A DNA stretch of 34,160 bases, from assembly GCF_009935845.1 (NCBI RefSeq), contig NZ_QWEK01000039.1, positions 1 to 34,160 on the forward strand, read 5' to 3'. Below are positions 1,859-18,227 of the stretch, in pieces. The stretch's first letter is position 1. Every line of letters starts with the position of its first letter. Both the position numbers and the translations under genes were made by a program. The DNA is from Pseudoflavonifractor sp. 524-17. Its GTDB lineage: Bacteria > Bacillota > Clostridia > Oscillospirales > Oscillospiraceae. The notes beneath the pieces are model-generated. The model made no database searches. It was given only the letters and a program-made list of their open reading frames with translations, and was not told the origin of the DNA.

Positions 1859-1881
1859 CTTTGAGACAAAATGTCCCAAAG
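1859..1881 (+). repeat. Palindrome copy A
   Basis: Copy A of the repeated near-palindrome with core TTTGRGACA-AAA-TGTCCCAAAGC. The left arm has one change (GAG for GGG). It is in direct orientation with copy D (5190) and inverted relative to copies B (2277) and C (4361). Confidence 0.8.
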
Positions 1882-1912
1882 CTATCGTTGTCCCCGCGCA
1901 TTTTTGCATAGT

Positions 1913-2072
1913 GGCTCTGGTGGTATATCCCCCGTCGCCGCCTACTATTGAGCACAGGCGGGAGTGGGCAGTCAAGGATGCGTAGCACCGCCGCTTGCGG
2001 CGGCTTGCCCTTGACGGTCTGCCCCGGCTGTGCTATCCCTCCGGCGCGGCGGGGGATATATCCTCCAGAGCC
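1913..2072. other. 160-nt nested hairpin (candidate structured RNA or cruciform)
   Basis: Four nested stems share one axis. The outer stem pairs 1913-1938 with 2046-2072, about 25 pairs with one mismatch and one bulge. AGCACAG (1951-1957) pairs with CTGTGCT (2028-2034). GGGCAG and GTCAAGG (1966-1977) pair with CCTTGAC and CTGCCC (2009-2024). The apex is CCGCCGC-TT-GCGGCGG (1988-2003). Such agreement between two arms is not expected in protein-coding or unconstrained DNA. Which strand is transcribed, if either, cannot be told from the sequence. Confidence 0.75.
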
Positions 2073-2073
2073 G

Positions 2074-2101
2074 CCCCCTTTCCCATGAATGGGAAAGGGG
2101 G
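2074..2101. other. Perfect 13 bp hairpin
   Basis: CCCCCTTTCCCAT (2074-2086) pairs without mismatch with ATGGGAAAGGGGG (2089-2101) across a 2-nt gap. It directly follows the nested hairpin inside the palindrome-bounded element and has no T-run suited to a terminator. Confidence 0.65.
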
Positions 2102-2276
2102 GGATAGGGGTGAACGCGCTGTAAAAATCGCTTATTTTCCACGGCTGGACTGTTAGCATTTAGGCGTTTGAAAGCCGCTTGTATTAAGGGTTTCCGGGCG
2201 TGTTTGGCAAGGGGGTGGTATGTTTATATGTTCTGCGCCCTATTCGTTCCACAAATGCTAACATTGAGGGTTCCTG

Positions 2277-2299
2277 CTTTGGGACATTTTATCTCAAAG
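2277..2299 (-). repeat. Palindrome copy B
   Basis: Copy B, inverted relative to copy A and carrying almost the same arm change. It forms the right end of the 441 bp element and lies about 190 bp upstream of the sigma factor start. Confidence 0.75.
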
Positions 2300-2487
2300 A
2301 TAGAGGTTACCTCATATTCAGTCGTAAAGAAAAATGGGAACAAGTGCATGATATATTGATAGTAAGCGAAATAGGTGTAAAATAAATCAAGGCAGATGTT
2401 CTCAAAAAGCTCCAGAAAAATTTCAGTGTTTTTTCATTTTTTAACGTACTATATATGACCGGTCAATCAACACAGGAGGTGAAGTTT

Positions 2488-3054
2488 TTGAATGATGAAA
2501 AAATAATAACAGCCATCAAAAATCGAAACGAAGCAGCGATTACCGAGACAATCACAAAGTATTCTAAGCTGTTATGGTCGGTGGCAGAGGCAGTTTTGAG
2601 CCATATCGGGTCAGTTCAAGATGTGGAGGAATGTGTTGCTGATACATTCATCTACGTATGGGAACATCCGGAAAGATTCGATCACCAGCGGGGAAAACTG
2701 AAAACCTGGCTGTCTATCGTTGCCCGCACACAGGCTGTGAACCGATATCGGGAAATTACAAAGCGCAATACACTCCCTCTGGAAGATACAGACTTTATCG
2801 ACCAGCTCAGTGTTGTGGATGCCGTTCTGGAGGCGGAGACACGCAAAGCCTTGCTCGCGGCAGTCAACGCTCTTGGTGAACCGGATCGTGAAATTTTGAT
2901 TCGCCGGTATTGCTACAATCAAAAGCCCAAAGAAATCGCGCTGGCGCTGGATATGAGTGTGAAACAAATCGACAACCGGCTGTACCAAACAAAACGGAGA
3001 TTGCGTGAGATGCTTACGCGCTCAGAAGGAGGACAATATGAGTTCTTTCAGTAA
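2488..3054 (+). CDS. ECF-type RNA polymerase sigma factor
   Basis: This protein directs RNA polymerase core to a small set of promoters. Sigma region 2 spans roughly residues 10-85: EDVEECVADTF-like helices, VWEHPERFD, then the KLKTWLSIVARTQAVNRYRE motif typical of ECF factors. Sigma region 4 (about 125-180) shows LGEPDREILIRRYCYNQKPK and an HTH ending in KRRLREML. I chose TTG at 2488 because AGGAGGT lies 7 nt upstream. An ATG at 2455 is in frame but has no ribosome-binding site and would add 11 residues. The last 17 bases overlap the start of the next gene, a membrane protein that is its likely regulator. The pair lies between palindrome copies B and C. Its target regulon is unknown. Confidence 0.85.
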   Translation: MNDEKIITAIKNRNEAAITETITKYSKLLWSVAEAVLSHIGSVQDVEECVADTFIYVWEHPERFDHQRGKLKTWLSIVARTQAVNRYREITKRNTLPLEDTDFIDQLSVVDAVLEAETRKALLAAVNALGEPDREILIRRYCYNQKPKEIALALDMSVKQIDNRLYQTKRRLREMLTRSEGGQYEFFQ

Positions 3055-4282
3055 AACAAATTTGCAGAACATAAAAGATATTTTCGAGGAAAAAACCGGC
3101 GCTGAATTGGTATCCCGCCGCCGTCCTATCGGAGTCTCTGTGCTTATGGCGGCTGTGATGGTGTGTTGCCTCACAACGACTGCCTTTGCGGTCAGCCTGT
3201 TTTCTTCTTTGGACGGAGATGATTTGAGCCTTTCCGCCACCTATGAGGGGAATGGCCTCGTATCCATTCAAGTAGAAAACCGATCAAATAAAAATCTGAG
3301 TTTCCAGCCGCAGTTGAGACTGATGCAATGGTCTACCGCCGAAGAAATCGTTCCAACCTCTGGCGAGACTGTATTCAGCGGCACTGAGTTCGGAGCGCAT
3401 ACCAGCGGCGTGATGACGGTGGATCTCTCCCAAGCGTACAACATGGATGTGCTGGAACAGCCGCTCACCGATGACCATTATTATTTCGTGCTGACGAACA
3501 ACAATTTTGTGTTTGGACAGGACTGGATGTGTTCTGTTTCTTTTGCGGAGCCAATCAAAACGGTGGTAGAGACGCCGCTCCCCATTCCTGCTGCCGAGGC
3601 CGACAGAGAACTGGCTGCACAAATTATGGAGGAACTGCGGCCTTATTTTGAAACCTATCCTGCCAATATCGACGAGCGGAGAGAGGCCGCGGGCAGTTAC
3701 CTTCAGAAATGCCAAGAACTGTTGACCACACTGGATCGGGATGTAGTCCCCGCAGTAGAGGCTCCCCTGGCGATTGACGGGCTAAACCCGGAGGTTATCT
3801 TTGATGGGACTGCTCCTCTGGAGACACAACACTGGCTGACCGGTCTGCACTGGCGCAGCCTTGATGGCTATGGCATCCCGGTTGGCTCTACCGAAGGCGA
3901 AAGAGCCTTGGTTTTGAGCGCGTATGTTCCCCAGCACAAAGGAGAGGTTGATGGCGGCGTAGATATCCCCCTGCTTTACTTCCTTACCTACAATGTGAAG
4001 GACATTCAAAGTCCAGAGGATATTGCCTTTATCCACGGACAGCTCATGACTTTTGGTGAACTGGAGCAGTACAAAGTATATGAAGATGAGCAGTATGTCT
4101 GCTACGAGGTGACTGACCTGTTTTACACAAATCTCCGCCAGCATACGGAGAGCATGGTCAGCCAGCGGAGCGACATCTACTTTGATGAACAGATTTGGAG
4201 GCGCGTGGAGAATATCTATAACTACTACAAGGACAGGGATGTCTTGAACAGCCGTTTTTACTACAATCTTCCCACTGAATAA
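3038..4282 (+). CDS. Single-pass membrane protein, probable anti-sigma factor
   Basis: The ATG at 3038 follows AGAAGGAGGACAAT inside the 3' end of the sigma gene, so the two are translationally coupled. Of 414 residues, about 33 basic N-terminal ones should lie in the cytoplasm. One transmembrane helix follows (about 34-54, PIGVSVLMAAVMVCCLTTTA), then a large extracytoplasmic part. Residues around 65-170 look like a beta-rich domain, and the C-terminal half carries many aromatic and acidic residues. No zinc-binding anti-sigma (H-x3-C-x2-C) motif is visible. The cotranscribed single-pass topology is the usual arrangement for anti-sigma factors, so the role comes from context. I do not recognise the outer domain, which might sense a surface or envelope signal. 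Confidence 0.7.
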   Translation: MSSFSKTNLQNIKDIFEEKTGAELVSRRRPIGVSVLMAAVMVCCLTTTAFAVSLFSSLDGDDLSLSATYEGNGLVSIQVENRSNKNLSFQPQLRLMQWSTAEEIVPTSGETVFSGTEFGAHTSGVMTVDLSQAYNMDVLEQPLTDDHYYFVLTNNNFVFGQDWMCSVSFAEPIKTVVETPLPIPAAEADRELAAQIMEELRPYFETYPANIDERREAAGSYLQKCQELLTTLDRDVVPAVEAPLAIDGLNPEVIFDGTAPLETQHWLTGLHWRSLDGYGIPVGSTEGERALVLSAYVPQHKGEVDGGVDIPLLYFLTYNVKDIQSPEDIAFIHGQLMTFGELEQYKVYEDEQYVCYEVTDLFYTNLRQHTESMVSQRSDIYFDEQIWRRVENIYNYYKDRDVLNSRFYYNLPTE

Positions 4283-4351
4283 TGATGGAATAGACATCCA
4301 GTTCCCTCCGTTATTTTCAGTAGCCGCTATCGTTAATAAGTACGAATAAAT

Positions 4352-4392
4352 TTCCCTCAGCTTTGGGACATTTTGTCCCAAAGCTGAGGGAA
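4352..4392 (-). repeat. Palindrome copy C, extended to a perfect 41 bp inverted repeat
   Basis: The shared core at 4361-4383 is extended by TTCCCTCAG on the left and its complement on the right. The result is two 19-nt arms with no mismatch around a 3-nt centre. It lies 69 bp after the anti-sigma-like gene and ends exactly where the -35 box of the vanZ promoter begins. It could be a terminator stem without a U-run, an operator or an element end. Confidence 0.85.
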
Positions 4393-4421
4393 TAGACAGC
4401 GATATAAAAGTATGCTATACT
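4393..4421 (+). promoter_or_regulatory. Sigma-A-type promoter for vanZ-like gene
   Basis: TAGACA (4393-4398), a 17-nt spacer and TATACT (4416-4421). The -35 box touches the right end of palindrome C, so a protein bound there would probably affect this promoter. Confidence 0.6.
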
Positions 4422-4466
4422 TGATTTCCAAGCAAATAGATAAATCAGAAGTTTGTGGAGGGACAT

Positions 4467-5156
4467 ATGTTTCTTGTAATATATAATTCATTTAGAATGG
4501 AAATGAACTCCGGCACAATTTTAGGTTACTTTTTGCAAGCTGTACCGATTACGATTGTTGTTGGGATTTTGTATGCAGTTTGCAGATTAGTATTCTTAAA
4601 GCAAAGGAACGGCAATATTGCATGGATGTCAGAAACGATGCGGTTGCTGTTTGTGTGTTATCTGACCGGACTGTGCAGCCTTGTTATCCTGCCAATAGGT
4701 TTTTGGCTGGACATTTTTGATGGTATTTTTTTCGGCTGGTGGGAAGAAATGGTGCCGCTTTTTAAGCTCGGTGAGATTAACTTGATACCTACTATCGTGA
4801 AGTGTCTAAGTGGTGAATACTCTCTCGGCAGTTGGGTAAAAGAGATGATTATCGGCAATGTTTTGATGTTTATACCATTTGGTTTTTTCCTCCCATTTGT
4901 CACCGAAAAGCTGAACAGCAAGAATATTTTTGCAATGGCCGCAGCAGTCCCGATTATCGTAGAACTGTTCCAGCTTATTCTCGGCAGAAGTTTCGATATT
5001 GATGACTTGATTTGTAACTTTCTGGGAATTATAATTGGCTTCTTTATTGCTGTCGGGATAAAAGCAATCAGAAGAACCACTTCAAAACAAGTCACCCCTC
5101 TTTTCTGTCCGCTTTTCTGGTGGTATATGAGAGGGCAACACTGGGGCCGGAAATAG
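4467..5156 (+). CDS. VanZ-family membrane protein
   Basis: The protein has 229 residues and about five to six transmembrane helices. The VanZ-type core includes LPIGFWLDIF, the loop KLGEINLIPT, GNVLMFIPFGFFLPF, a later VELFQLILGRSFDIDDLICN and LGIIIGFF. In this family the N-x-L-x-F-x-P-x-G and D-I-D-D motifs are the hallmark. VanZ gives low-level teicoplanin resistance in enterococci by an unknown mechanism, and most relatives are uncharacterised. ATG at 4467 is preferred (GGAGGGACAT); a GTG at 4455 is in frame. The last 16 or so residues (CPLFWWYMRGQHWGRK) are encoded by DNA resembling part of the 441 bp element and may not be native. The gene lies between inverted palindrome copies C and D. 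Confidence 0.85.
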   Translation: MFLVIYNSFRMEMNSGTILGYFLQAVPITIVVGILYAVCRLVFLKQRNGNIAWMSETMRLLFVCYLTGLCSLVILPIGFWLDIFDGIFFGWWEEMVPLFKLGEINLIPTIVKCLSGEYSLGSWVKEMIIGNVLMFIPFGFFLPFVTEKLNSKNIFAMAAAVPIIVELFQLILGRSFDIDDLICNFLGIIIGFFIAVGIKAIRRTTSKQVTPLFCPLFWWYMRGQHWGRK

Positions 5157-5189
5157 TCGGGACGTATTTCCTACATAGTCCAAATGAAG

Positions 5190-5210
5190 TTTGGGACAAA
5201 ATGTCCCAAA
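5190..5210 (+). repeat. Palindrome copy D
   Basis: Perfect inverted repeat of TTTGGGACA and TGTCCCAAA around AAA. It is 33 bp after the vanZ stop and just before the serine recombinase remnant, in inverted orientation to copy C. Confidence 0.85.
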
Positions 5211-5213
5211 GCC

Positions 5214-5246
5214 GGGGCGGTATTTTTCACAGTGCCGCCCCCTTTT
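5214..5246 (+). terminator. Probable terminator after vanZ
   Basis: GGGGCGG (5214-5220) pairs with CCGCCCC (5235-5241), followed by CTTTTC. It is directly downstream of palindrome D. Confidence 0.5.
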
Positions 5247-5247
5247 C

Positions 5248-6123
5248 ATGCCTAGCGGCATCCCTCCCGCTATCAAAAAATTTTCCGAATTGATGTATGA
5301 AATGTATGCGGAACCCGAAACCTCCTACGGCGATATTACCCGGTATTTCACCGAGAATGAAATTCAAGTGTACGGGAAAACGCTGAAACGGGGATTTGTG
5401 GCGCAGCTCCTGCGGAACCCGGTTTACGTCCAGGCCGACATGGATATTTACGAACACTTCAAGGCACAGGGCGCGAAAATCGAAAGCCCCCCGGAATTGT
5501 TCACGGGCGATTATAGCTGTTACTTATACCAGGGCCGGGAGGGGGAGGAGAATATTCTTGTTATCGCTCCCCACAAGGGCCGTATCCCCTCGGCGCTCTG
5601 GCTGAACGTCCAGCACAAGCTATCCCAAAATACCACGTTCCAGAATGGCCGGAAATGTCACAATACATGGCTGGCGGGGAAAATCAAGTGTGGGTGCTGC
5701 GGATATGCATTAGTAGGTCTGAACGCCGCAAACGGGGTGACGTACATGAGATGCAGATAGCGCGTGGAAAACAAAAGCTGTCCGGGGCCCGGAACGCTGA
5801 CACGGCAGGAACTGGAAAAACCGGTGTATGATGAAATGGTAAAGAAGATGCGGGAATTTCAGACGCTGAGGAGCGGCAAGGCGGAGGGGTACAATCCAAA
5901 ACTCACCGCCGCCCGCGCCAAACTCGCCAAAATCGAAAGCGAGATTGAAAAGCTGATTGACACACTGACCGGGGCAAACCCTCTCTTGTTGCAATATGCA
6001 AATAGCCGGATTGAAGAATTGGACACAGAACGGCAAAAGCAGTTAAAGCTGGTGGCCGACCTCACCGCTAATTCTGTTTCAACCTCTCAGCTTGATAGCA
6101 TATCGGGCTATCTGGAAAATCTA
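5248..6123 (+). pseudogene. Large serine recombinase remnant (recombinase and zinc-ribbon domains only)
   Basis: This is the middle and C-terminal part of a large serine recombinase of the TnpX kind, which excises and inserts mobilisable elements. A recombinase domain (SYGDITRYF, RGFVAQLLRNPVYVQADMD) is followed by the zinc ribbon (IKCGCCGYALVGLNAANG, then RCR and NKSCPGPGTL) and a long coiled coil (AKLAKIESEIEKLIDTLTGA). The whole N-terminal catalytic domain with its active-site serine is missing. A TAG at 5758-5760 interrupts the zinc ribbon, most simply CAG to TAG. Similarity ends at SISGYLEN, where the antitoxin promoter region begins, so the tail is also lost. The protein cannot be active. 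Confidence 0.85.
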
Positions 6124-6217
6124 AAAATTTTTACTTCGCATTATACCATTGTCAAAGACGTTTTACTATGTTTGATAACGGTCACTACTTTATCCTTTTG
6201 GGAAACCTCGTCAAATA

Positions 6218-6247
6218 TTGACATTTCAGCGGTCGGTGTAGTACAAT
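6218..6247 (+). promoter_or_regulatory. Promoter of the antitoxin-toxin pair
   Basis: TTGACA (6218-6223), an 18-nt spacer and TACAAT (6242-6247), about 20 bp upstream of the antitoxin start. Autoregulation by the antitoxin is usual for the family, but no operator was identified. Confidence 0.7.
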
Positions 6248-6269
6248 AGCATTACAAGGGGGTGGCCTT

Positions 6270-6491
6270 ATGTCCATGGACGCTACATTGCAGGTTCGTA
6301 TGGATGGTCAAATCAAAAATAACGTCGAAGAACTTTACCGTAATCTTGGCACATCTTTTGCTGAAGCTGTCCGCATTTTCGCACAGCAGAGTCTTTTGGC
6401 GGGTGGGATGCCCTTCCGTTCCACCCTCAAATCTTGGGAGGAACTTACTGAAACAGATGAACGGTTGAAGGTAAAATTCCGTCATGAATAA
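6270..6491 (+). CDS. RelB/DinJ-family antitoxin
   Basis: A 73-residue protein with the ribbon-helix-helix start of RelB/DinJ antitoxins (ATLQVRMDGQIKNNVEELYR, then LGTSFAEAVRIFAQQSLLAGGMPF), followed by a short acidic C-terminal part that would wrap the toxin. The start has a good Shine-Dalgarno (AAGGGGGTGG). It normally binds its own operator as a dimer and neutralises a RelE/YafQ-type ribosome-dependent nuclease. The toxin ATG overlaps the antitoxin end by 8 nt. The antitoxin frame is intact while the toxin is frameshifted, the expected direction of decay because the reverse would be lethal. Confidence 0.85.
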   Translation: MSMDATLQVRMDGQIKNNVEELYRNLGTSFAEAVRIFAQQSLLAGGMPFRSTLKSWEELTETDERLKVKFRHE

Positions 6492-6815
6492 AAAGTATCA
6501 GATTATTTATACTGGATCTGCTATCCGGGATATGGAAGAAAAGGTGGACTATATTTCCCTCAGCTTTCACGATCCTGGTTTGGCAGAAAATAGTACTTGA
6601 AGCTTAGGACGGAATTCTTGGAAGATTTAACTCAATTTCCCTACAAATACCCCCTTTATCATGTCCAGAAGTGGAGCGCTAAGGGGATTAGGCAATTCAC
6701 GTTCCGCAATGATATAACTCTCTATTCTGTCAATGAAAAGGAACAAATAGTTTATATTTGGGCGGTATGTGCTAAGGGACGAGATTTGACGGCCCATTTG
6801 GAGGAATACACATAA
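6484..6815 (+). pseudogene. RelE/ParE-superfamily toxin with a frameshift
   Basis: The first frame reads MNKKYQIIYTGSAIRDMEEK and on to DPGLAENST, then stops at 6598-6600. The continuation is in the -1 frame from about 6592: YLKLRTEFLEDLTQFPYKYP, then a C-terminal part with RQFTFRNDITLYSV and VYIWAVCAKGRDLTAHL. Joined, they make a normal RelE-type toxin of about 110 residues. Loss of one base near AATAG-TAC explains the break. No X-XXY-YYZ slippery heptamer lies in phase, so programmed frameshifting is unlikely. The 38-residue product lacks the catalytic C-terminal strands. Confidence 0.8.
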
Positions 6816-6821
6816 AAATGC

Positions 6822-6844
6822 GGCGGCAGGAAACTCCTGCTGCC
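6822..6844. terminator. Hairpin after the toxin-antitoxin locus
   Basis: GGCGGCAGGA (6822-6831) pairs with TCCTGCTGCC (6835-6844) with one G-T pair and a 3-nt loop. There is no T-run on the plus strand; on the minus strand it is followed by GCATTTTTATG. The rest of 6845-7000 shows nothing recognisable. Confidence 0.45.
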
Positions 6845-7006
6845 GTTGCCATCAGTTATAAATCAATTCGTGGCAGGTCATTTCTTCTGCCCTGTTCTTA
6901 ACATTGTTCATCCATCTGACCCATTCCATACGTTGCCTTTCCCTTGGGAGGCAGGTCTTTTTTTGTAGTACACACGTGAGAAAATATGAGAAAATAGGGC
7001 TGCCTA

Positions 7007-7035
7007 TTTTCAATTTGAAAGAAAAGCGGTATAAT
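7007..7035 (+). promoter_or_regulatory. Promoter of hemW
   Basis: TTTTCA (7007-7012), 17 nt, then a perfect TATAAT (7030-7035), 44 bp upstream of the start codon. Confidence 0.6.
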
Positions 7036-7079
7036 GGCACTGACAGACCCAGCGTACAAGACAGCGAGGTGGTCCAGCT

Positions 7080-8324
7080 ATGCCGGAAAAAATCGGAATC
7101 TACATCCACATTCCCTTCTGCCGCAGCAAGTGCGACTACTGTGACTTTTATTCCCTGGCGGGGCGGGAGGACCGGATGGACCGCTACCTGAAAGCCCTTC
7201 TGGTCCATATCCGGGAGACCGCCTCTCTGGCCCAGGGCTATCAGGCGGACACCATCTACCTGGGGGGCGGCACCCCCAGCTATTTTGGGGAAAAGCGCCT
7301 GCGGAATGTGCTCGCCGAGGTGGAAAAGCGCTTTGACGTGGCCCAGAACGCGGAAATCACCGTGGAGTGCAATCCGGACAGCGTGGACAAAAAGATGCTG
7401 GCAAAGCTGCGCCGGGCGGGGGTAAACCGCCTGTCTTTGGGGGTGCAGTCCGCCAATGACCAGGAGCTGGCCGCCATTCACCGGCCCCACACCTTCGCCC
7501 AGGCGGCGGAAGCAGTGGCCTGGGCCAGACAGGCAAAGCTGAAAAACCTCAGCCTGGACTTGATCTACGGCCTGCCTGGGCAGGACCTGGCCAGCTGGCA
7601 GGAGACCGTCGAGCGGGCGGTCGCCCTCCAGCCGGAGCACCTGTCCTGCTACGGCCTGAAGCTGGAGGAGGGCACCCCTCTCTGGGGCCGGGCCGCCCGG
7701 GGGGAGGGCCTGCCTGACGGCGATCAGCAGGCCGATATGTACCTGTGGATGGTGCAGCGGCTGGCCCAGGCGGGGTACAAGCAATACGAGATCTCCAACT
7801 TCGCCCGGCCCGGCTTCCAGTCCCGGCATAACCTGAAATACTGGATCGGCCGGCCCTATATCGGACTGGGGCCGGGGGCCCACTCCGACTTCGGCGGACG
7901 GCGCTACTCCTTCGTGCGGGATCTGGACGCCTACGTCAGCGGTGTGCTGGAGGGGGGCGGCTGCATTGTGGACAGCTCCGACCTCATCCCGCAGCGGGAG
8001 CGGGGGGGCGAATATCTGATGCTCCGCCTGCGCACCACCCGGGGCATTGAGGAGTGGGAGTACCGCCGGGAGTTTTTTATGAACTTCGACCCCATCGAGC
8101 AGAAGCTGGAGGAGTTTGAGCGCCACGGCTGGGCCGCCCGGCAGGACCGGCGGTGGTACTTTACGCCCAAGGGCTTTCTGGTATCCAACCAGCTGATCGG
8201 CAGCCTTCTGGAGGCGCAGGAGGACGCCGCCCTGGACGTGCTCCTGCCCAAGCTCCGCCAGGAGCGGGAATCCGCCCCTCAGCCTCCGGAAAAGCCGCCG
8301 CGAAAGCCAAGAAAGGGGAAATAA
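7080..8324 (+). CDS. hemW: HemW-like radical SAM protein (heme chaperone family)
   Basis: The 414-residue protein starts with the radical-SAM iron-sulfur motif C-x3-C-x2-C (Cys14, Cys18, Cys21) inside GIYIHIPFCRSKCDYCDFYS, the signature of HemN/HemW proteins. Further family marks are YLGGGTPS, ECNPDS, RLSLGVQS and the GLPGQ loop. The C-terminal HemW domain follows (GLGPGAHSDFGGRRY). HemW is annotated as coproporphyrinogen-III-oxidase-like but lacks that activity and is thought to bind and deliver heme. The tail past residue 390 is a short Pro/Lys-rich extension. The gene has its own promoter and ends about 30 bp before the promoter of the SLH protein gene. Confidence 0.9.
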   Translation: MPEKIGIYIHIPFCRSKCDYCDFYSLAGREDRMDRYLKALLVHIRETASLAQGYQADTIYLGGGTPSYFGEKRLRNVLAEVEKRFDVAQNAEITVECNPDSVDKKMLAKLRRAGVNRLSLGVQSANDQELAAIHRPHTFAQAAEAVAWARQAKLKNLSLDLIYGLPGQDLASWQETVERAVALQPEHLSCYGLKLEEGTPLWGRAARGEGLPDGDQQADMYLWMVQRLAQAGYKQYEISNFARPGFQSRHNLKYWIGRPYIGLGPGAHSDFGGRRYSFVRDLDAYVSGVLEGGGCIVDSSDLIPQRERGGEYLMLRLRTTRGIEEWEYRREFFMNFDPIEQKLEEFERHGWAARQDRRWYFTPKGFLVSNQLIGSLLEAQEDAALDVLLPKLRQERESAPQPPEKPPRKPRKGK

Positions 8325-8351
8325 TGGCAGCCTGATTTTCCCCCGCCGCTG

Positions 8352-8380
8352 TTTACAAAATCTGCGCGGTGTGTTATGAT
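8352..8380 (+). promoter_or_regulatory. Promoter of the SLH glycosidase gene
   Basis: TTTACA (8352-8357), 17 nt, TATGAT (8375-8380). Transcription should start near 8387, leaving a leader of about 75 nt. Confidence 0.6.
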
Positions 8381-8403
8381 ACCAGTATTCTTTTACGTCC
8401 TGC

Positions 8404-8442
8404 GCGCCCGGCCGCAACAGACCCAGGCCGGGCGCTGTTTTT
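8404..8442 (+). terminator. Intrinsic terminator inside the leader of the SLH gene (possible attenuator)
   Basis: GCGCCCGGCC (8404-8413) pairs perfectly with GGCCGGGCGC (8426-8435), followed by TGTTTTTG. It is downstream of the predicted promoter at 8352-8380 and upstream of the ribosome-binding site (AAAGGAGG, about 8450). It could therefore end most transcripts before the gene. It may equally be the hemW terminator, overrun by the promoter placement. Confidence 0.65.
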
Positions 8443-8460
8443 GATCCAAAGGAGGTAGCA

Positions 8461-11400
8461 ATGAAACATATCCGGCTCAAACGGGCGGCCGCCGCCGGCC
8501 TGGCCCTGCTGATGGCCGCCGGCCCGGCGGCCATGGCCTCGGAGGCGCTGGGGCATGATATCCATGGGGGGAAGGTGGGCCTTGCCCCCGGCGCTGCCGT
8601 CAGCCGCCAGATTTTCTGGAGCGATACATATTCCGACCTGCGCACCGAGCGCTATCTCACCTACACCCCCAGTGAGGACATCGTCCCTACAGTGGCCTAC
8701 GGAGACAGCGTCCTCAAGCGCCAGACCCTGTCCGCCATGGCCAAGACCCTGGAGGGGCAGGGCAAGCGGGTGGTAGGCGGCATCAACGGTGACTACTACG
8801 CCATGGCCACCGGATCCCCGGTGGGCCTGGTGCTCACCGACGGGGTGGTCCGCTCCGCCGCCGGACCCGCCAGCGCGTGGTATTACGGGGTCGGCTTCCG
8901 CTCCGACGGCACCGCCTTCATCGGCAAGCCCGCCCTGGCGCTCAAGGCCTCGTTTCACGACAGCACCTATCCCCTGGGGGGCGGCATCAATAAGATACGC
9001 ACCGAGCTGGGAGGATATACCCTGCTTACCCAGGACTTTGCCGCCAGCACCCAGAACACCAGCCCCGGGGTGGATGTGATCCTCACCCCCGTGGTGGATC
9101 AGGTGGGGCAGGAGGTGGTGGACGCCGGGGGTTCCGTGCTGGTGCAGAGCAGCCAGCTCACCATCGGGGGCCGCGTCACCTGCACGGTAGACCAGGTGCT
9201 GGAGTCTGAGGGATCCATCCCCATCCCCGCCGGCAAGCTGGTGCTCACCATCAACGGCAAGGGGGACGCCGCCCTGATTGAGGCCCTCAAGGCCCTTCAG
9301 CCGGGGGAGACGGTGAGCTTTGACATCTCCAGCCCCGACGCCCGCTGGCTGGGCGCGGTGAACGGCATCGGCGCCCCCAGCCGCCTGCTCAACGGCGGCA
9401 CCATTGACTACAACAGCTTCCAGGGGGACTCCAACGCCTCCGGCAACCGGGCCCGTACCGCCATCGGCCTGAAGGAGGACGGCACGGTTATCTTCTATAC
9501 CATTGACGCCGGCGCCTCCGGGTACAGCGTGGGCTGCACACTGGCCCAGGTGGCCATGCGCCTGCGGGAGCTGGGCTGTGTGGAGGCTGTGGCCCTGGAC
9601 GGGGGCGGCTCCACCACTTTGGGGGCAACCTATCCCGGCGACAGCGCCATGGAGATCCTGAACCGCCCCTCTGAAGGGGCCCAGCGGGCCAACAGCACCG
9701 CTATCTTTCTTACCACCACCCTGCCCGCCACCAACACGCTGGGCAGCTATTACGTCACACCCACCGACGCCATGCTCCTGTCTGGGGCCAGCATCCAGCT
9801 CAGCGCCGAGGCGCTGGACACCTCCTTCTACCCAATGGCCGGTACGGAGATGGTCTCCTACTACATCCAGAACGGGGACGGCACCGTCACCGCGGACGGA
9901 CTGTTTACCGCGGGCGGGGAGAACAGCGTCACTTTGGTCACCGCCAGCGACGGCATTGTGGAGGGCAGCGCCTCCATGACGGTGGTGAAAACCCCAGACG
10001 CCATCACCCTGAGCAACGAGAAGACCGGCGCGCCGGTGACCAGCCTCAACCTTATCCCCGGAGAGCAAGTGGATTTGAAGGCCGCCGCCGTCTACCGCAA
10101 GCTCCCACTGCTGTCTCAGGACAGCTGCTATGCCTGGAGCTGTCCCGAGGCCCTGGGGGTCATTGACCAGGAGGGGGTCTTCACCGCCGGCAGCAACGCC
10201 ACCAGCGGCATCATTACGGTCAGCGCCGGCGGAAAGTCGGTCTCCCTGCCGGTGAGCATCGCCGGGCATGTCTTCACCGTGGAGGACTGCGAGGCAGACG
10301 CCTCCGCCTTTACGGATACCGAAACCGCCTCCGCCGGGATTGAGACCAGCCTGGCCCATGTCCACAACGGCGTCCAGAGCCTGAAGCTGACCTATGACAG
10401 CTCCGGCGGAACCGCCGATCTGACGGCGGATCTCACCATCCGGGAGGAGGAGCAGTATCTGGGTGTGTGGGTGTATGGGGATGGATCCGGCAATACCCTG
10501 ACCGCCGCCATCGCCGCCCAGGACGGCCAGGAGATCCCCGTCGTTCTCACCGGCCTGGACTTTACCGGCTGGAAGCATGTGTCCGTTACCCTGCCGGAGG
10601 GGGCGGCCAAGCTCACCCGCCTGTCCGTGGTCTACGGCGGCGGCGAGAGTGCCCGGGGCGTCCTCTGGCTGGATCAGTTTACCACATCCAACGAGCCGGA
10701 GCGGGACAGCGAGGCCCCTGAGGTCTCCGTCAAGGTCAGCGGCCGGCAGGTTACCGCCAGCGCCAGCGATAATATGGACCGCAGCATTCCCGGGGATCAC
10801 GTCACCCTGACCTATGACGGCGCCGTGGTGGAGAAGAGCTGGGACACCGCCGCCAACACTCTCACCGCCACCCTGCCGGAGCCGGACGGCATGGCCCACC
10901 GGGTCACCGTCACCGTCACCGACAACAGCGGCAACCTGGCCCGGGCGTCGGCGGACATCGCCCCCGACCCGGGGCGGCAGAATGTCTTTGCGGACATGGC
11001 CGGCCACTGGGCCGCCACCTACGCCACCTATCTCTACCGCCGGGGAGTCACCAGCGGCACCGGGGAGATTTTGCTCTACAGTCCCGACCGGAACATCACC
11101 CGGGGGGAATTCTTTGCCATGACCGCCCGGTGGATGGACCTGGATCTGAGCCAGTTTGCCGATGTGGTTCTCCCCTTCGCCGATGTGGACGCCATCCCCC
11201 CCTGGGCCATGGATGAGATTAAGGCGATGTACAGTCTGGGCATCCTCAGCGGCACCGACAACGGAGACGGCCTGAAGGTCAACGCCGCCGCCAACATCAG
11301 CCGGGCCGAGGTCATGGCCATCCTGGACCGGACCCAGGCCCGGGGCTACGCGGCAGAGCCCCTCGCCTATGCTGACGCCGGCGATGTGCCGGCGTGGGCG

Positions 11401-11520
11401 CTGCACGCCATGCGCTCTCTGGTGAGCCAGGGGATTGTCTCCGGCTATCAGAACCGCATCAACCCCATGCAGCCCATCACCCGGGCGGAGGTGGCGGTGC
11501 TGCTCTACTCCATGCTGTAA
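8461..11520 (+). CDS. SLH-anchored phosphodiester glycosidase (NAGPA-domain) surface protein
   Basis: A 1019-residue secreted protein with a signal peptide (MKHIRLKRAAAAGLALLMAA, cleavage near AMAS). A phosphodiester glycosidase domain runs from about residue 60 to 420. It is recognised by GGINGDYYAMATGSPVGLVL (near 107), RTAIGLKEDG and LDGGGSTT (380-386), as in the human uncovering enzyme NAGPA and exopolysaccharide-associated relatives. Ig-like or carbohydrate-binding-like beta domains fill about 430-830. Three SLH modules end the protein (about 841-1019; NVFADMAGHWAA, FADVDAIPPWAMDEI, YADAGDVPAWALHAM) and should tether it to cell-wall polymer. Start ATG 8461 has AAAGGAGGTAGCA before it. 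The substrate is unknown, probably a surface or host phosphodiester-linked sugar. Confidence 0.88.
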   Translation: MKHIRLKRAAAAGLALLMAAGPAAMASEALGHDIHGGKVGLAPGAAVSRQIFWSDTYSDLRTERYLTYTPSEDIVPTVAYGDSVLKRQTLSAMAKTLEGQGKRVVGGINGDYYAMATGSPVGLVLTDGVVRSAAGPASAWYYGVGFRSDGTAFIGKPALALKASFHDSTYPLGGGINKIRTELGGYTLLTQDFAASTQNTSPGVDVILTPVVDQVGQEVVDAGGSVLVQSSQLTIGGRVTCTVDQVLESEGSIPIPAGKLVLTINGKGDAALIEALKALQPGETVSFDISSPDARWLGAVNGIGAPSRLLNGGTIDYNSFQGDSNASGNRARTAIGLKEDGTVIFYTIDAGASGYSVGCTLAQVAMRLRELGCVEAVALDGGGSTTLGATYPGDSAMEILNRPSEGAQRANSTAIFLTTTLPATNTLGSYYVTPTDAMLLSGASIQLSAEALDTSFYPMAGTEMVSYYIQNGDGTVTADGLFTAGGENSVTLVTASDGIVEGSASMTVVKTPDAITLSNEKTGAPVTSLNLIPGEQVDLKAAAVYRKLPLLSQDSCYAWSCPEALGVIDQEGVFTAGSNATSGIITVSAGGKSVSLPVSIAGHVFTVEDCEADASAFTDTETASAGIETSLAHVHNGVQSLKLTYDSSGGTADLTADLTIREEEQYLGVWVYGDGSGNTLTAAIAAQDGQEIPVVLTGLDFTGWKHVSVTLPEGAAKLTRLSVVYGGGESARGVLWLDQFTTSNEPERDSEAPEVSVKVSGRQVTASASDNMDRSIPGDHVTLTYDGAVVEKSWDTAANTLTATLPEPDGMAHRVTVTVTDNSGNLARASADIAPDPGRQNVFADMAGHWAATYATYLYRRGVTSGTGEILLYSPDRNITRGEFFAMTARWMDLDLSQFADVVLPFADVDAIPPWAMDEIKAMYSLGILSGTDNGDGLKVNAAANISRAEVMAILDRTQARGYAAEPLAYADAGDVPAWALHAMRSLVSQGIVSGYQNRINPMQPITRAEVAVLLYSML

Positions 11521-11533
11521 TCACAGGCCCGCA

Positions 11534-11553
11534 GGCTGCCTTTTCCGGCAGCC
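11534..11553 (+). terminator. Short hairpin after the SLH glycosidase gene
   Basis: GGCTGCC (11534-11540) pairs with GGCAGCC (11547-11553) around TTTTCC. It is 13 bp after the stop codon and has no downstream T-run. It may stabilise the 3' end together with the next hairpin. Confidence 0.4.
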
Positions 11554-11580
11554 GGGCTGCGAGGCTTTTCCGACACGCTC

Positions 11581-11613
11581 AGCCTGAAAAGAATCCATGA
11601 TTCTTTTCAGGCT
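11581..11613 (+). terminator. Intrinsic terminator after the SLH glycosidase gene
   Basis: AGCCTGAAAAGAATC and GATTCTTTTCAGGCT form a perfect 15 bp stem with a 3-nt loop, followed by GTTTGATTAT. It has the size and position of a real terminator, although the T-run is broken. Confidence 0.7.
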
Positions 11614-11682
11614 GTTTGATTATACCGCTGAATTTACCGGGATTTCCTCCATTTCCCGCGGGGTTTTTGTGGGGAACATACC

Positions 11683-11712
11683 TTGCGTTCCAGGAGAGAA
11701 ATTGCGTATAAT
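11683..11712 (+). promoter_or_regulatory. Promoter of the HAD phosphatase gene
   Basis: TTGCGT (11683-11688), 18 nt, perfect TATAAT (11707-11712), 44 bp upstream of the start codon. Confidence 0.65.
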
Positions 11713-11755
11713 CAGACCTGTGAAAAAATGAGTCAAGCGTTAAAGGAGTATGGAC

Positions 11756-12559
11756 ATGTATCGAATGATTGCGCTGGATATTGATGGGACCCTGGTGGGG
11801 AAGGACGGCCGGGTGAGCGCCGCCAACCGGGCCGCCATCGCCCAGGCCAAAGCCGCGGGGCTGCGGGTGGTGCTGTGTACCGGCCGGTCCTGGCAGGAGT
11901 CGGAGGAGGTGGCCGCGGAGATTGGCTGCGACCCGATGATAGTCTGTCAGGGGGGCGCGGCCCTGGCCGATCTGGAGCAGCGGCGCAATACCCGCCTGTG
12001 GGAGATCCCCCAAAACGCCGCCCTGGCCCTGCTGGCGCTGCTGGAGGACCAGCCCCTGGGCTTCGTCTACTTTTCCGGCAGCGAACTGCTGGTCAATCCC
12101 GGGTCTCTTGCAATCTTTCAAGCCTATCCCAGCGAGGGCTTTCACCGCGCCAAGCGGGTGGTGGAGCACCCCCTGCGGTATTTTCAGGAGGGTAATTTGC
12201 CCCTGAATAAAATTTTTGCCTGCGGCGACCCGGCCTGCTTCCCGCCCCTTCTGGAGGGGGTGCGGGCCCGTCCGGAGGTAACCCTTACCTCCTCCGCCTG
12301 GAATAACTTTGAAATTCTCCCCGCCGGTATCGACAAGGGGACCGGTCTGGCCGCCCTGGCGGCTGGCCTGGGCATCGGAATGGAGGAGATAATCGCCATC
12401 GGCGACAGCCCCAACGACATGGCAATGCTGTCCGCGGTGGGGATGCCGGTGGCCATGGGCAACGCCCCCGGCGAGGTGAAGGCCCTGGCCCGGTACGTCA
12501 CCGCTGCAAATGAGGCGGACGGCGTGGCCCAGGCGATCCGCCATGTGCTGGGGCTGTGA
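11756..12559 (+). CDS. Cof-type HAD-superfamily phosphatase
   Basis: Cytoplasmic phosphohydrolase of the Cof/YidA group (HAD subclass IIB), 267 residues. HAD motif I is DIDGTL with nucleophile Asp8 and acid/base Asp10. Motif II is CTGRS, motif III the Lys in GIDKGTGL, and motif IV GDSPNDMAML with the Mg-binding Asp pair. The cap domain lies between motifs II and III. Such enzymes dephosphorylate sugar phosphates, FMN or pyridoxal phosphate, and the substrate cannot be read from sequence. I prefer ATG at 11756, because AAAGGAG is 7 nt upstream; the ATG at 11750 would be only 1 nt from it. It has its own promoter and lies between two SLH protein genes. Confidence 0.88.
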   Translation: MYRMIALDIDGTLVGKDGRVSAANRAAIAQAKAAGLRVVLCTGRSWQESEEVAAEIGCDPMIVCQGGAALADLEQRRNTRLWEIPQNAALALLALLEDQPLGFVYFSGSELLVNPGSLAIFQAYPSEGFHRAKRVVEHPLRYFQEGNLPLNKIFACGDPACFPPLLEGVRARPEVTLTSSAWNNFEILPAGIDKGTGLAALAAGLGIGMEEIIAIGDSPNDMAMLSAVGMPVAMGNAPGEVKALARYVTAANEADGVAQAIRHVLGL

Positions 12560-12626
12560 GCGGCTTGCGGCAGGCGGCAGGACGCCGGAAATAATGGGCG
12601 CGGGACGGAAAATCCGCCGGCCCCCG

Positions 12627-12655
12627 TTGCTTTTTCCAGGCGAAGCCGGTATAAT
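12627..12655 (+). promoter_or_regulatory. Promoter of the second SLH protein gene
   Basis: TTGCTT (12627-12632), 17 nt, TATAAT (12650-12655), about 75 bp before the start codon. Confidence 0.65.
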
Positions 12656-12729
12656 TTGGAGTATATGACTGACGCCCCGCATCCCAGCGGCCGCAGGGGC
12701 GGCGGAACAGCGCAATTCGGAGGTGTATC

Positions 12730-15051
12730 ATGAGAGAAAAACGAGTGTTATCTATGGCGCTGTCATTGGCGCTGGCGGCGGGCATGCTGTCCGTCCCTGC
12801 CTCGGCGGCCCGGTTTACCGATATGCAGAACCACTGGGCCCAGGCCGATGTGGAGTATCTGAGCACCCAGGGCCTTGTGAGCGGATATAACGACGGCACC
12901 TTCAAGCCGGACGCCGCCATGAGTACCATTGAGGCGCTGCTCTTCTGCGCCCGCATTCCCGTTCTGGACTCCAATACCAAGCGGCTTATCGTCACCGACT
13001 GGACCGACGAGCTGCGCATGGTGCTGCCCGCGTCCATGATGTCCTGGGCGGCCAGCGATTTGTCCGTCTGTCTGGCCACCGGCATCATCTCCATGGACGA
13101 GCTGCGCTCCCTGACCAACCGGGACGGCCTGATGTCCGCCATCCCCCGGGAGGATGTGGCCAAGTACCTGGCCCGGGCCATGCAGCTGGCCCCCATGGCG
13201 GAACATCTGACCACCTATACGCTGGACTTTGCCGATACCAGCGCCATTTCCCAGGAGATACAGCCCTATGTCTATGTGCTGAGCAACTACGGCATTGTGA
13301 AGGGGGACGAGTTCAACAATTTTCAGCCCAAGAGCAGCCTGAACCGGGCCTCCATGACCTCTCTGCTGCGCCGGGGGCTGGAGTTCATGACCGCGCGGGG
13401 CATCTCAGTGGAGCTGCCGCAGTATACCACCAACAAGTGGGTAGGGGGCGTCATCCGCACGGTGCAGGCCAACAGTAAGGGCAATACGGTTCTCAGCCTG
13501 GCCAGCCCTCTGGGCACGATCCGCACCGTCACCCTCCCATCCAATGTGAAAATTTATCAGGACAACATGCTCACTACCGATTCGGCCCTGAAAAACGGGA
13601 TCTATGTCCGGGTGAACCAGAATAACAACGGTACTGCCTCCAGTGTGCGCATCGGCGGCGCCCTCACCACCGTCAGCGGCCCTGTGGTGAGCATTCAGAA
13701 GGACAGCCTTACCATTCGGGAGGACGGGGTGGCCCGTACTCTCCCGGCTGACCGCTTCATTGAAATTCAAAACGGCAGTCAGGTGGGCGGGCTGGAGCTG
13801 CTGGACGCCTCCGCCGGCTACACCTCCGCGGAGTGCTTTGTGGACGCCATGGGCCATCTGGCGGCCATCCGCTTTTCCGGCGGCACCCAGGCGGAGGAGG
13901 GGATTCTCTCCGACGTGAAGTTCAACGCCGGCGGCGGCGCCCAGATTCAGCTCACCGGGGAGAACGGCACCCGCACCCAGTATGCCATCCCTGCTGGAGC
14001 CGTTGTGCTGGTCAACGGCTCCTCCGGGGCGCTGAGCTCCAGCCAGATCGGGGACTTTGTCACCCTGCGGGTGTCCACTGAGGACCGCACCCAGGTGTCC
14101 GAGGTGCAGATAGACACCTTGACCGAGTACATCCAAGGCTCCATCCGCACCATCAGCACGAAAAATTACGGCAAACTCACCGTGGAACAGGCACTGAAGG
14201 GGAAAACCACCTCACATTCCCTCCTCAGTGGCACCGAGGTGACCTACGAGGGCAACCTGGTGGACGTGAGCGATCTCCACAAGGGCGACTTTGTCACCAT
14301 CCGTCTGGATGACGACGGCAACGCCCTCTACGTGGCCGCCTCCCCCGGATCCGTCACGGTGGAGGGCACCATCCAGGCCATTTTGTACGGCAGTCCCACC
14401 ACCATTCAGCTGGCCCAGCGGGACGGTACTGTGGTGAACTATGACGTGGATCTCAACGCCCCGCCCCTGGTGTACCGGAATAAGGTGCGCACCACCGTTG
14501 ACAAGCTGCGCAGCGGCGACGAGGCGGTCTTTACCATCCGGTACAACGCCGTCACCCGCATCGACGCCACCCCCAAGAGCGCCAACGCCTCCGGCACCAT
14601 CCAGAAGGTGAGCCTGGACAACAGCGGCACTACCATTGAGGTCCTGCTGGACGACAACACCGCCGCCGCCTATCTGGTGGATGAGACCGTCTCCGTCACC
14701 CAGAACGGCAAGGCGGTATCTATTGACTCCCTCAAGCCCGGATTCAAGATCGACATGGTGCTGGAGGGCAGCCAGATCCTCTCCATTGAGGTCTCCCGCG
14801 GCACCGCCCAGGCCAATCAGCTCACCGGTACGATCCTGTATGTAAACCGGAGCGAGTGGGAGCTGCTGGTCCAGCGGGATGACAACACCTCCACCGCCCT
14901 GACCGTGTACGTGGGGGACGCCGTCATCCGCTCCACCGCCTCCACCAACACCACACTGTCCCTTAGCGACCTGGAGACCGGCGACGGCGTGATGTGCTTC
15001 GGCGCCTATGACGGCCTGGTCTTCCGGGCTACTCTGGTGCTTCTGCTGTAA
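12730..15051 (+). CDS. Secreted SLH-domain surface protein with repeated beta modules
   Basis: A 773-residue protein with signal peptide MREKRVLSMALSLALAAGML, cleaved near ASAA. SLH modules follow at once (RFTDMQNHWAQADVEYLSTQ, about 27-75). A more divergent one lies at about 100-160 and a further one at about 167-215 (FADTSAISQEIQPYVYVLSN, NRASMTSLL). Residues 225-773 are a series of degenerate beta-strand repeats, each with a G-x-[IV]-x-x-[IV] start and a DFVTLR, DEAVFTI or DGVMCF turn, probably a rod-like surface domain. No catalytic motif is visible. The start has GGAGGTGTATC. With N-terminal SLH modules it is wall-anchored at the opposite end from the glycosidase at 8461-11520. It probably has a structural or adhesive role. 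Confidence 0.8.
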   Translation: MREKRVLSMALSLALAAGMLSVPASAARFTDMQNHWAQADVEYLSTQGLVSGYNDGTFKPDAAMSTIEALLFCARIPVLDSNTKRLIVTDWTDELRMVLPASMMSWAASDLSVCLATGIISMDELRSLTNRDGLMSAIPREDVAKYLARAMQLAPMAEHLTTYTLDFADTSAISQEIQPYVYVLSNYGIVKGDEFNNFQPKSSLNRASMTSLLRRGLEFMTARGISVELPQYTTNKWVGGVIRTVQANSKGNTVLSLASPLGTIRTVTLPSNVKIYQDNMLTTDSALKNGIYVRVNQNNNGTASSVRIGGALTTVSGPVVSIQKDSLTIREDGVARTLPADRFIEIQNGSQVGGLELLDASAGYTSAECFVDAMGHLAAIRFSGGTQAEEGILSDVKFNAGGGAQIQLTGENGTRTQYAIPAGAVVLVNGSSGALSSSQIGDFVTLRVSTEDRTQVSEVQIDTLTEYIQGSIRTISTKNYGKLTVEQALKGKTTSHSLLSGTEVTYEGNLVDVSDLHKGDFVTIRLDDDGNALYVAASPGSVTVEGTIQAILYGSPTTIQLAQRDGTVVNYDVDLNAPPLVYRNKVRTTVDKLRSGDEAVFTIRYNAVTRIDATPKSANASGTIQKVSLDNSGTTIEVLLDDNTAAAYLVDETVSVTQNGKAVSIDSLKPGFKIDMVLEGSQILSIEVSRGTAQANQLTGTILYVNRSEWELLVQRDDNTSTALTVYVGDAVIRSTASTNTTLSLSDLETGDGVMCFGAYDGLVFRATLVLLL

Positions 15052-15212
15052 GAACCTGTATTCATAACCGAAACTGCCGCCTGGGCGAGGGATTTCCCGA
15101 CCAGACAAGGCAAATTTTCGCAGGAATACTGGATGTATTTCAAGAAAATTCAACGCAGTATGGCCGGAAAGACCCGCCCAGCCGGTCGTTTGAGGTTGTG
15201 AATACAGGATCT
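15051..15212. repeat. 162 bp inverted-repeat (MITE-like) element
   Basis: The ends (15051-15069 and 15194-15212) are inverted repeats with core CCTGTATTCAYAACC. The interior is also imperfectly self-complementary: AAACTGCCGCCTGGGCGAGG resembles the complement of the right half, and TTTTC pairs with GAAAA around the middle. It starts within the stop codon of the SLH gene and ends about 68 bp before proS. No reading frame fits it. A matching right half is at 30962-30997, so it belongs to a dispersed family. Confidence 0.65.
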
Positions 15213-15279
15213 AAGGCGGCGGGCTGCTTGTTTCCCCCATCTCAGCGCTTTTGAATAACTGGTAAAGGATTGAAAGCAT

Positions 15280-16716: not shown

Positions 16717-16738
16717 CTTCTGTCTGTTCTGGCACAAC

Positions 16739-16771
16739 CGGCCCCCGGCGGAACCATTCCGCCGGGGGCCG
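16739..16771. terminator. Perfect 15 bp GC hairpin between proS and the pseudouridine synthase gene
   Basis: CGGCCCCCGGCGGAA pairs perfectly with TTCCGCCGGGGGCCG around CCA. No T-run follows, and the next Shine-Dalgarno (AAAGGAGG) starts 9 nt later. It may be a weak or factor-assisted terminator, or an mRNA-stabilising stem within an operon. Confidence 0.55.
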
Positions 16772-16792
16772 AGACTGTGAAAGGAGGGAAAT

Positions 16793-17707: not shown

Positions 17708-18227
17708 AGATGGAGCCGTCCTCCCCCACCAGAAGAAACCGGATGCCTACTTTTTGGATCTGCGCCAGAGCGGACCAGCGCTGGGCCAGCTCCAGGCTCT
17801 TTTTCGTGCGGGGAACCGCCACGGCGGGGAGGATGGTTTCATCCATAGGACAGCCGGTCATCAGCTGGCCAATGGCCTCCCGCATGAGGGAGTACTCATG
17901 AGACGGAGGGCCCGGCCGGCTCTTCTTGCTCTCCACGTATAAAGTCCGGCCATCTGGCAGAGCAATCCGGACATCGCCGGCTCCCGGCAGGGAGTCTACC
18001 AGGAGGGCGGGGGCAAATTGCCCGCTGCGGTAGCCCCCCTGCCAGCGGTGAAGGTCACCGTCTGCCTTGGTACAGCCCTGCTCCGATAAAAATCCACGGA
18101 TATCAAAGTGAACCGTGTTCCCGGTTTTGATGTGCGCGCCGTCAATGGAGACGCGGACCTCCCGCCGGGTCAGGCGGCGGCGCAGATAGTACAGGGCGAG
18201 GCGCAGGCTTACCTCCGGTTCCGTCAT
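17697..18227 (-). CDS. Hypothetical protein with a possible PD-(D/E)XK-like motif
   Basis: 176 residues from ATG 18227, which has CAGGAGGTGCGCGC before it; longer forms upstream lack support. No signal or membrane segment. The N-terminal 30 residues are basic (LRLALYYLRRRLTRREVRVS). The centre has a conserved-looking core: GAGDVRIALPDGRTLYVESK, with Asp in GDVRI and then E-x-K in VESKK, which matches the spacing of a PD-(D/E)XK nuclease active site. A Gln/Glu-containing helix follows (HEYSLMREAIGQLMTG). This is suggestive only; I do not recognise a named family. The coding strand opposes both neighbours, and its start is divergent from the TSCPD gene. Confidence 0.65.
   Translation of the reverse strand: MTEPEVSLRLALYYLRRRLTRREVRVSIDGAHIKTGNTVHFDIRGFLSEQGCTKADGDLHRWQGGYRSGQFAPALLVDSLPGAGDVRIALPDGRTLYVESKKSRPGPPSHEYSLMREAIGQLMTGCPMDETILPAVAVPRTKKSLELAQRWSALAQIQKVGIRFLLVGEDGSISMF

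Follow-up and report, generated by a model that had tools for sequence, protein, structure and literature searches.

Genes and repeats at the locus

The window, i.e., the whole stretch of 34,160 nt that was analyzed, carries near its beginning a segment of 441 bp (1859-2299) that an earlier note on this DNA described as one non-coding element with inverted-repeat ends and nested hairpins. The features themselves are present: the ends are inverted (arms 1859-1882 and 2276-2299; 24 nt, 96% complementary), the interior contains a nested hairpin (arms 1924-1938/2046-2060 plus inner stems) and a second, perfect hairpin of 13 bp (2074-2086/2089-2101), and protein-coding character is lacking, in that the two ORFs of more than 100 aa crossing the segment have no Pfam match. 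The unity of the segment did not hold up. Each end taken alone is a near-perfect palindrome, and the two ends form an inverted repeat with each other because both are copies of one palindrome, which occurs four times in the window (starting at 1859, 2277, 4361, and 5189); the palindrome pattern with up to three mismatches gives four matches in the window compared with none in 100 shuffles. A search for other copies of the segment, as the note had proposed, found four in its own genome. According to blastn among four contigs, the full-length repeat common to two other contigs is a unit of 649 bp at 1651-2299, with identities of 93% in contig C82 and 89% in contig C95; the copy in contig C111 is shortened and lacks the right end. 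Since the repeat spans 1651-2299, the left palindrome (1859-1881; CTTTGAGACAAAATGTCCCAAAG) is internal to it, and the right palindrome (2277-2299; CTTTGGGACATTTTATCTCAAAG), defined by the palindrome scan and blastn, forms its right edge. The left part of the repeat (1651-1858, + strand) lies within the repeated unit and outside the 441-bp segment; it holds a G+C-rich hairpin (1746-1780/1803-1837) located by inverted-repeat search and a terminator-like stem at ~1712-1749 that was recognized by eye and is absent from the list of the terminator/promoter-like scan. Between the two palindromes lie a structured element (1912-2116, + strand) containing the nested and 13-bp hairpins, defined by a 25-sequence alignment, covariation, and context, and a block designated block C (2117-2276, + strand), an oriT candidate defined by blastn, ICE contexts, and alignment. 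The segment is probably neither one element nor a MITE; ParB-type sites, a covarying establishment leader, and a mobilization-region block would together make up a mosaic on a recombinase-linked island.

The first gene downstream of the segment (2455-3054, + strand) encodes a sigma factor of ECF-like size with Sigma70_r2 and r4_2 domains, followed by an ORF without a Pfam or NCBIfam match (3005-4282, + strand). The third palindrome (4361-4383) lies between this ORF and a gene for a VanZ-like membrane protein (4455-5156, + strand; PF04892, E 1.7e-19), and the fourth (5189-5211) between the VanZ-like gene and the remnant of a large serine recombinase gene (5191-6249, + strand), which consists of two ORFs, is missing its N-terminal part, and has 93.9% identity over 835 bp to a longer gene on C82. 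Recombinase-linked islands are found at 9059-17723 of locus L014 (C82), 4331-12556 of locus L016 (C111), and 2455-6249 of the window, and the genes between their palindromes are varied and regulatory (sigma factors, BlaI/BlaR1-like, XRE-type, VanZ-like, and lipoprotein-like ORFs). The sole Rfam match at gathering score in the window is a tRNA gene at 31891-31976.

The palindrome and its distribution

In cellular genomes the palindrome conforms to a 25-bp motif, ACTTYGRGACA-WWW-TGTCYCRAAGT, with flanks almost without information, as derived from 329 unique contexts, of which 270 cell contexts with full flanks (including the four sites of the window) were condensed to an independent set of 147. 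In 268 cell sites the letters at half-site positions 3 and 19 seem to vary independently (C..G 79, C..A 73, T..G 65, T..A 50, and one other), a pattern that fits double-stranded half-sites and not a hairpin; a function of the palindrome as a hairpin was rejected on the ground that its arms vary independently. The half-site of the sopC sites of the F plasmid contains GGGAC.

The genome itself has 18 palindrome sites, all on four contigs, compared with one match to the reversed control pattern. At one mismatch or fewer the palindrome occurs in 9 of 200 genomes of the family, this genome counted, and in the richest of them the sites cluster within 10-20 kb. Scans of GTDB contigs and of IMG/VR returned at least 117 and 24 stretches with the palindrome, respectively, with Clostridia providing most of the GTDB matches listed; several of the counts still include duplicate contigs and close relatives (L110 is the contig of L080, and L128 that of L076). 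Single elements can be densely occupied (7 sites in 12.8 kb of L075; 8 sites with at most one mismatch in 20 kb of L076), and palindromes also occur singly, dispersed through Clostridial ICEs and in some cases inside genes. The carrier ICEs encode a CD1110-family VirB4 and a CD1108 protein, both above curated cut-offs, and have matches below the cut-offs to a SAG1250-like relaxase and a TraJ-like MobC. Other elements have palindromes of other classes at the same places (TGGACA, TGGCCA/TGGTCA, GGGCCA/GGGTCA). For example, L257 carries five copies of TTCTGGACA-WWW-TGTCCAGAG and has the same island plan and recombinase type as the locus described here, and L258 and L259 carry palindromes of the GGGCCA type. 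The listed matches of searches in the open-access PMC library include no description of this sequence or of a dispersed ParB code in Clostridial ICEs; the STAXI motif is treated in sections of PMC2864571.

A nearly identical palindrome is present in phages, where the motif is TTTGGGACA-NSN-TGTCCCAAA (32 phage contexts, reduced to 23). A PF02195 search of eight virus records, which are fragments, had its sole match in G202, which is ICE-like, and a PHROG scan of ten phage proteins returned packaging genes, an ATPase, a polynucleotide kinase, and a weak endonuclease VII-like gene. Phage palindromes of nearly the same sequence, together with the lack of any ParB_N match among the phage records tested, count against a single ParB story. 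Dispersed copies of the phage motif were observed at gene junctions of the IMG/VR phage contigs L207, L208, L210, L211, L215, L218, and L227.

ParB recognition helices and palindrome classes

The class of the palindrome varies with the ParB protein encoded at the locus. In an exploratory set of loci the ParB recognition helices differ with palindrome class, and among 88 loci outside that set a Tyr at one helix position goes with A-class (GGACA) sites in 20 of 24 cases, compared with 4 of 64 for other residues, and a Val at this position goes with C/T-class (GGCCA/GGTCA) sites in 4 of 5 cases, compared with 3 of 83, although related ParB loci are not independent and Fisher values overstate the support for the association. 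The test loci were found by ParB protein search, taking the best of each search. The first 60 loci, of which L273 lacks the helix and 11 were already in the exploratory set, gave 20/22 versus 4/37 for Tyr with the A class and 5/6 versus 1/53 for Val with the C/T class; no Tyr locus had the C/T class, no Val locus had the A class, and loci with other residues had the A class in 4/31 and the C/T class in 1/31. Removal of the 11 overlapping loci left 15/17 versus 2/31 for Tyr and 1/2 versus 1/46 for Val. The 40 further loci, taken in list order, gave 5/7 versus 2/33 for Tyr and 3/3 (one of them mixed) versus 2/37 for Val, with the A class in 1/30 and the C/T class in 2/30 of the loci with other residues. 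In a ParB tree of 26 rows the C/T classes occupy two branches that are separate from each other. Exceptions are Gly or Ala helices with A-class sites (L277, L281, L283, L285, and L330), Tyr ParBs without a site (L264, L278, L341, and L349), a Val ParB without a site (L307) and one in a mixed locus (L331), and C/T-type palindromes with other residues (L310, L350, and L361).

The association extends to short, distantly related ParBs, among which a GGGACA palindrome is present in the locus of 3 of 5 with Tyr (L289, L308, and L335) and an A-class palindrome in none of the 56 whose residue is neither Tyr nor Val. In HMMER alignments the Tyr/Val position aligns without gaps with the Arg of the Spo0J sequence 'GKSR', a stretch that is weak on its own; the structure 1vz0 (GKAR) also places Arg at the helix position, and the ParB profile matches the KorB structure 8qa8 (E 4.2e-9). 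According to sections of PMC7383237, R173 of Caulobacter ParB contacts parS, and as far as alignment can tell the Tyr/Val position of the ICE ParBs fits that residue. Given that the class of the site follows a single residue of the ParB recognition helix, the palindromes are most likely ParB/KorB-type sites. The left palindrome, upstream of the structured element at a conserved position, is a putative site of this kind on the strength of the helix/site-class association.

A ParA Walker-type motif (KGG[VTSA]GK[ST], a narrow motif) was found near parB in 0 of 12 ICE loci, with upstream flanks of 125-6054 bp, which leaves a partition role without its partner; on this observation, made in all 12 loci, a ParABS partition system was rejected. 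In the genome itself, an assembly of 3.7 Mb in 149 contigs that is 96% complete, a cognate ParB was not found: four of the seven ParB_N hits are unaligned over the helix, and the three that can be aligned have neither Tyr nor Val and no classed site in their loci. With four hits unaligned and the assembly incomplete, a cognate ParB may have been missed. No ParB was found on the island that carries the segment, either. Members of a distant ParB subfamily (L105, L149, L170, L174, and others) have the palindrome inside parB itself, where it encodes a TSGQLVPK-like linker from ParB_N to the helix-turn-helix.

The structured element and block C

The region 1895-2125 folds far better than shuffled sequence (z -9.5 as DNA, + strand; -8.9 as RNA, + strand; -7.6 as RNA, - strand), with 0 of 200 shuffles folding as well in each of the three tests. 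The covariance check suggested by the earlier note came out in favor of the stems: in the 25-sequence alignment 19 of 61 pairs have two-sided changes compared with 7.0 after shuffling (0 of 500 shuffles), and 96.0% of the cells can pair compared with 91.6% after shuffling and 37-51% in slid controls. The alignment contains 92 G-U cells and 19 A-C cells, a bias indicating that the + strand, i.e., the mRNA sense, is the constrained and structured strand. Rfam 15 has no match to the element at gathering score, all of those at E <= 10 being far below the gathering scores.

With the 649-bp repeat as query (E <= 0.001), 19 of 200 genomes of the family were matched, ten of which, besides the genome itself, match most of 1912-2116, the others having shorter matches or matches to other pieces. 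A covariance model (E <= 1e-5) matched 8 of 391 genomes of the class, comprising the genome itself, three strong, and four weak matches. In 16 of 29 copies of the element the end of parB lies 18-180 nt upstream on the same strand, and in these 16 copies DUF7768 or ArdA invariably lies downstream; overall, the start of DUF7768 is 12-133 nt downstream in 18 of the 29 and ArdA is downstream in 13. The arrangement can be seen in plasmid record OY725853.1 (locus coordinates: parB 4538-5959, element 6001-6212, DUF7768 6243-6584, ArdA 6584-7297). Eleven of the 29 copies have neither parB nor DUF7768/ArdA beside them, and the four of the genome itself are among these. All 29 copies have a palindrome of some class on their upstream side, within 185 nt counted from 160 nt before the element, compared with 53 of 1233 control intervals. 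Of the 29, nine belong to records to which the palindrome scan had led, and 20, including the four copies of the genome itself, were reached through the element or its surroundings. The region 1912-2116 is read as a separate, conserved, folded element that ICEs carry before anti-restriction genes and that would act as a leader. Of the three outcomes that the earlier note had named as refuting it, two, the lack of a second copy and the lack of covariation in the stems, did not come about, and its suggestion of a mobile structured RNA comes close for this interior.

In each of four loci (L111, L196, L187, and L181), block C is similar, by blastn and alignment, to the ICE DNA that precedes a MobC-type gene, and in L111, L196, and L187 a relaxase then follows within the listed range. 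From this resemblance block C is put forward as a candidate oriT.

Alternative explanations

The palindromes could be recombination sites of a cassette system, in which a recombinase, perhaps the linked large serine recombinase, both inserts and excises gene cassettes there and the 441-bp segment is one cassette. Such a system would account for an exact empty site, in that L230 consists of block A, one palindrome, and a BlaI gene where C82 has palindrome-441 bp-palindrome, and for the 14 of 564 simple indels (100-6000 bp) in which both edges of the insert and the empty junction have a palindrome, a combination seen in none of the 564 in any of 10 shifted controls; four distinct inserts underlie these 14, ten being cases of the same one. 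HSP ends also coincide with palindromes (683 of 7080, compared with 51-397 in shifted controls), but this clustering is confounded by the location of the sites at gene junctions, at which alignments stop in any case, and it carries little weight. The central bases, however, vary between sites (AAA, TTT, AAT, CTT, and others), the left and right sites of the segment have inverted centers, so that an overlap at the center should yield inversion, and the class of the site tracks ParB. Deletion or exchange between 23-bp direct repeats is, moreover, possible without a dedicated enzyme. We consider the cassette explanation unlikely. In our reading, the edges of gain and loss at palindromes come from exchange between short repeats that lie at gene junctions, a dedicated recombinase being the rival explanation. 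The earlier proposal of a DNA structure recognized by a recombinase, as applied to the ends, likewise loses ground to a ParB-family protein, to which the helix/site-class association points more strongly. The classification of the segment as a MITE-like element, also offered by the earlier note, in which the palindromes would be the terminal inverted repeats of a non-autonomous transposon, draws on the inverted ends and the several copies, and it is very improbable: the repeat runs 208 bp beyond the left end, the C111 copy lacks the right end, the palindromes occur alone across ICEs and inside genes as well, the interior is found in ICEs in another setting, and the empty site in L230 keeps a full palindrome. 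Apart from this one palindrome, inspection of the L230 site by eye showed no duplication. The MITE reading was rejected on the repeat crossing the left end and the palindrome retained at the empty site.

Operator sites of the kind termed stoperators offer a further comparison, under which the palindromes would be operators of some other ICE repressor and their association with ParB would be hitch-hiking. The position of the sites at many gene junctions and the presence in the ICEs of other DNA-binding proteins (XRE-type and MobC-type) would suit such a repressor; the recurrence of the association in the distant short-ParB group (Tyr 3/5 versus 0/56 for the A class) speaks against it, and we regard it as rather improbable. 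For the interior, the alternative is a function of the Frpo/ssi type, in which the single-stranded DNA of the incoming ICE strand would serve as a promoter or initiation site, an idea suggested by the position of the element before anti-restriction genes and by the very stable single-stranded DNA fold. Reasoning from the literature, a Frpo must fold in the template strand, whereas the excess of G-U (92) over A-C (19) places the constraint on the mRNA-sense strand, and promoter-like sites are not clearly above chance (3 compared with 1.1 +/- 1.2). A Frpo-type promoter was rejected for its wrong strand bias and the lack of a promoter above chance, and the Frpo/ssi explanation as a whole is quite improbable.

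Interpretation and comparison with known systems

The reading that we favor, and think probable, is that the segment is a mosaic of cis-acting DNA of Clostridial ICEs, with putative ParB/KorB-type sites at its ends and a leader structured on the sense strand inside. Its direct basis is the repeat structure, the covariation, the syntenic context, the site classes, and the helix/site association. An ICE-encoded protein of the ParB/KorB family would bind as a dimer to the palindrome, which is dispersed and specific to the element, with each subunit on one half-site; from there the protein would probably spread, organizing or silencing the ICE DNA. The leader, situated between parB and the establishment genes DUF7768/ardA and directly downstream of one site, would probably insulate and time those genes. 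In the genome studied here the segment precedes the sigma-factor gene on a recombinase-linked island, which would carry the sites and leader of a helper ICE. Since a search of the assembly yielded no cognate ParB, the island may be a satellite of such an ICE, perhaps one with copied sites by analogy with SGI1 as presented in parts of PMC10954446.

More tentatively, each Clostridial ICE might write a private palindrome code at many of its gene junctions, the reader being a ParA-less, ParB-like silencer of the clamp type, which would label the DNA as self and keep transfer genes off until establishment; the code would drift with one helix residue, and satellites would copy the code and the leader, possibly with an oriT, to be silenced, stabilized, and moved by the helper. 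This wider proposal is a possibility about which we are doubtful. If the interpretation is right, the sequence code would tell which ICE controls which satellite in gut Clostridia, the ICEs would provide a natural series of ParB/site pairs for the study of changing DNA-binding specificity, and an ICE family that many gut Clostridia carry would have a covarying leader for its early anti-restriction genes.

Several known systems share parts of this arrangement. Sections of PMC10954446 describe 14 dispersed inverted-repeat motifs on the IncC plasmid R55, taken as parS and in some cases examined by EMSA, and two such parS copies on the mobilizable island SGI1, so that inverted repeats dispersed on a conjugative element, with copies on an island, are common to both cases. 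The R55 motif, however, is 22 bp of other sequence in Gammaproteobacteria, with parA and demonstrated binding, whereas the sites described here are 25 bp and predicted, in Clostridial ICEs with no parA found nearby. The KorB/OB system of RK2, as covered in parts of PMC11790492, similarly combines a ParB-type protein and operators in long-range silencing of plasmid genes, and it is the KorB structure that the ICE ParB profile matches; OB is 16 bp in length, unlike the 25-bp palindrome of the ICEs. For ParB/Noc, the relevant sections of PMC7383237 likewise link a change at the R173 position of the recognition helix to a changed site, with Arg/Gln going with parS and NBS there, compared with Tyr/Val and a 25-bp site with a 3-bp center here. 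The nearest described counterpart of the leader is EGeRS1 of pLS20 plasmids, which according to parts of PMC8708921 is a conserved region of 400-600 bp with many inverted repeats, present in several copies upstream of anti-restriction establishment operons, in which no constitutive promoter was found and which prevents read-through in one orientation. Like EGeRS1, the structured element of the ICEs lies just upstream of anti-restriction establishment genes; the genes differ (ardC on Bacillus plasmids for EGeRS1 in the same source, DUF7768/ardA in Clostridial ICEs here), and the EGeRS-like position holds in 18 of the 29 copies for DUF7768 and in 13 for ArdA, with none of the four copies of the genome itself among them.

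Two other loci add observations on the placement of the palindromes. L209 (IMG/VR 2891278109) has the same palindrome spacing as contig C82. At 1277-2249 of L144 a gene of 253 aa without a Pfam match is inserted between two palindromes, and DNA flanking one of these palindromes recurs beside the other, the duplicate reading as the start of the relaxase gene.
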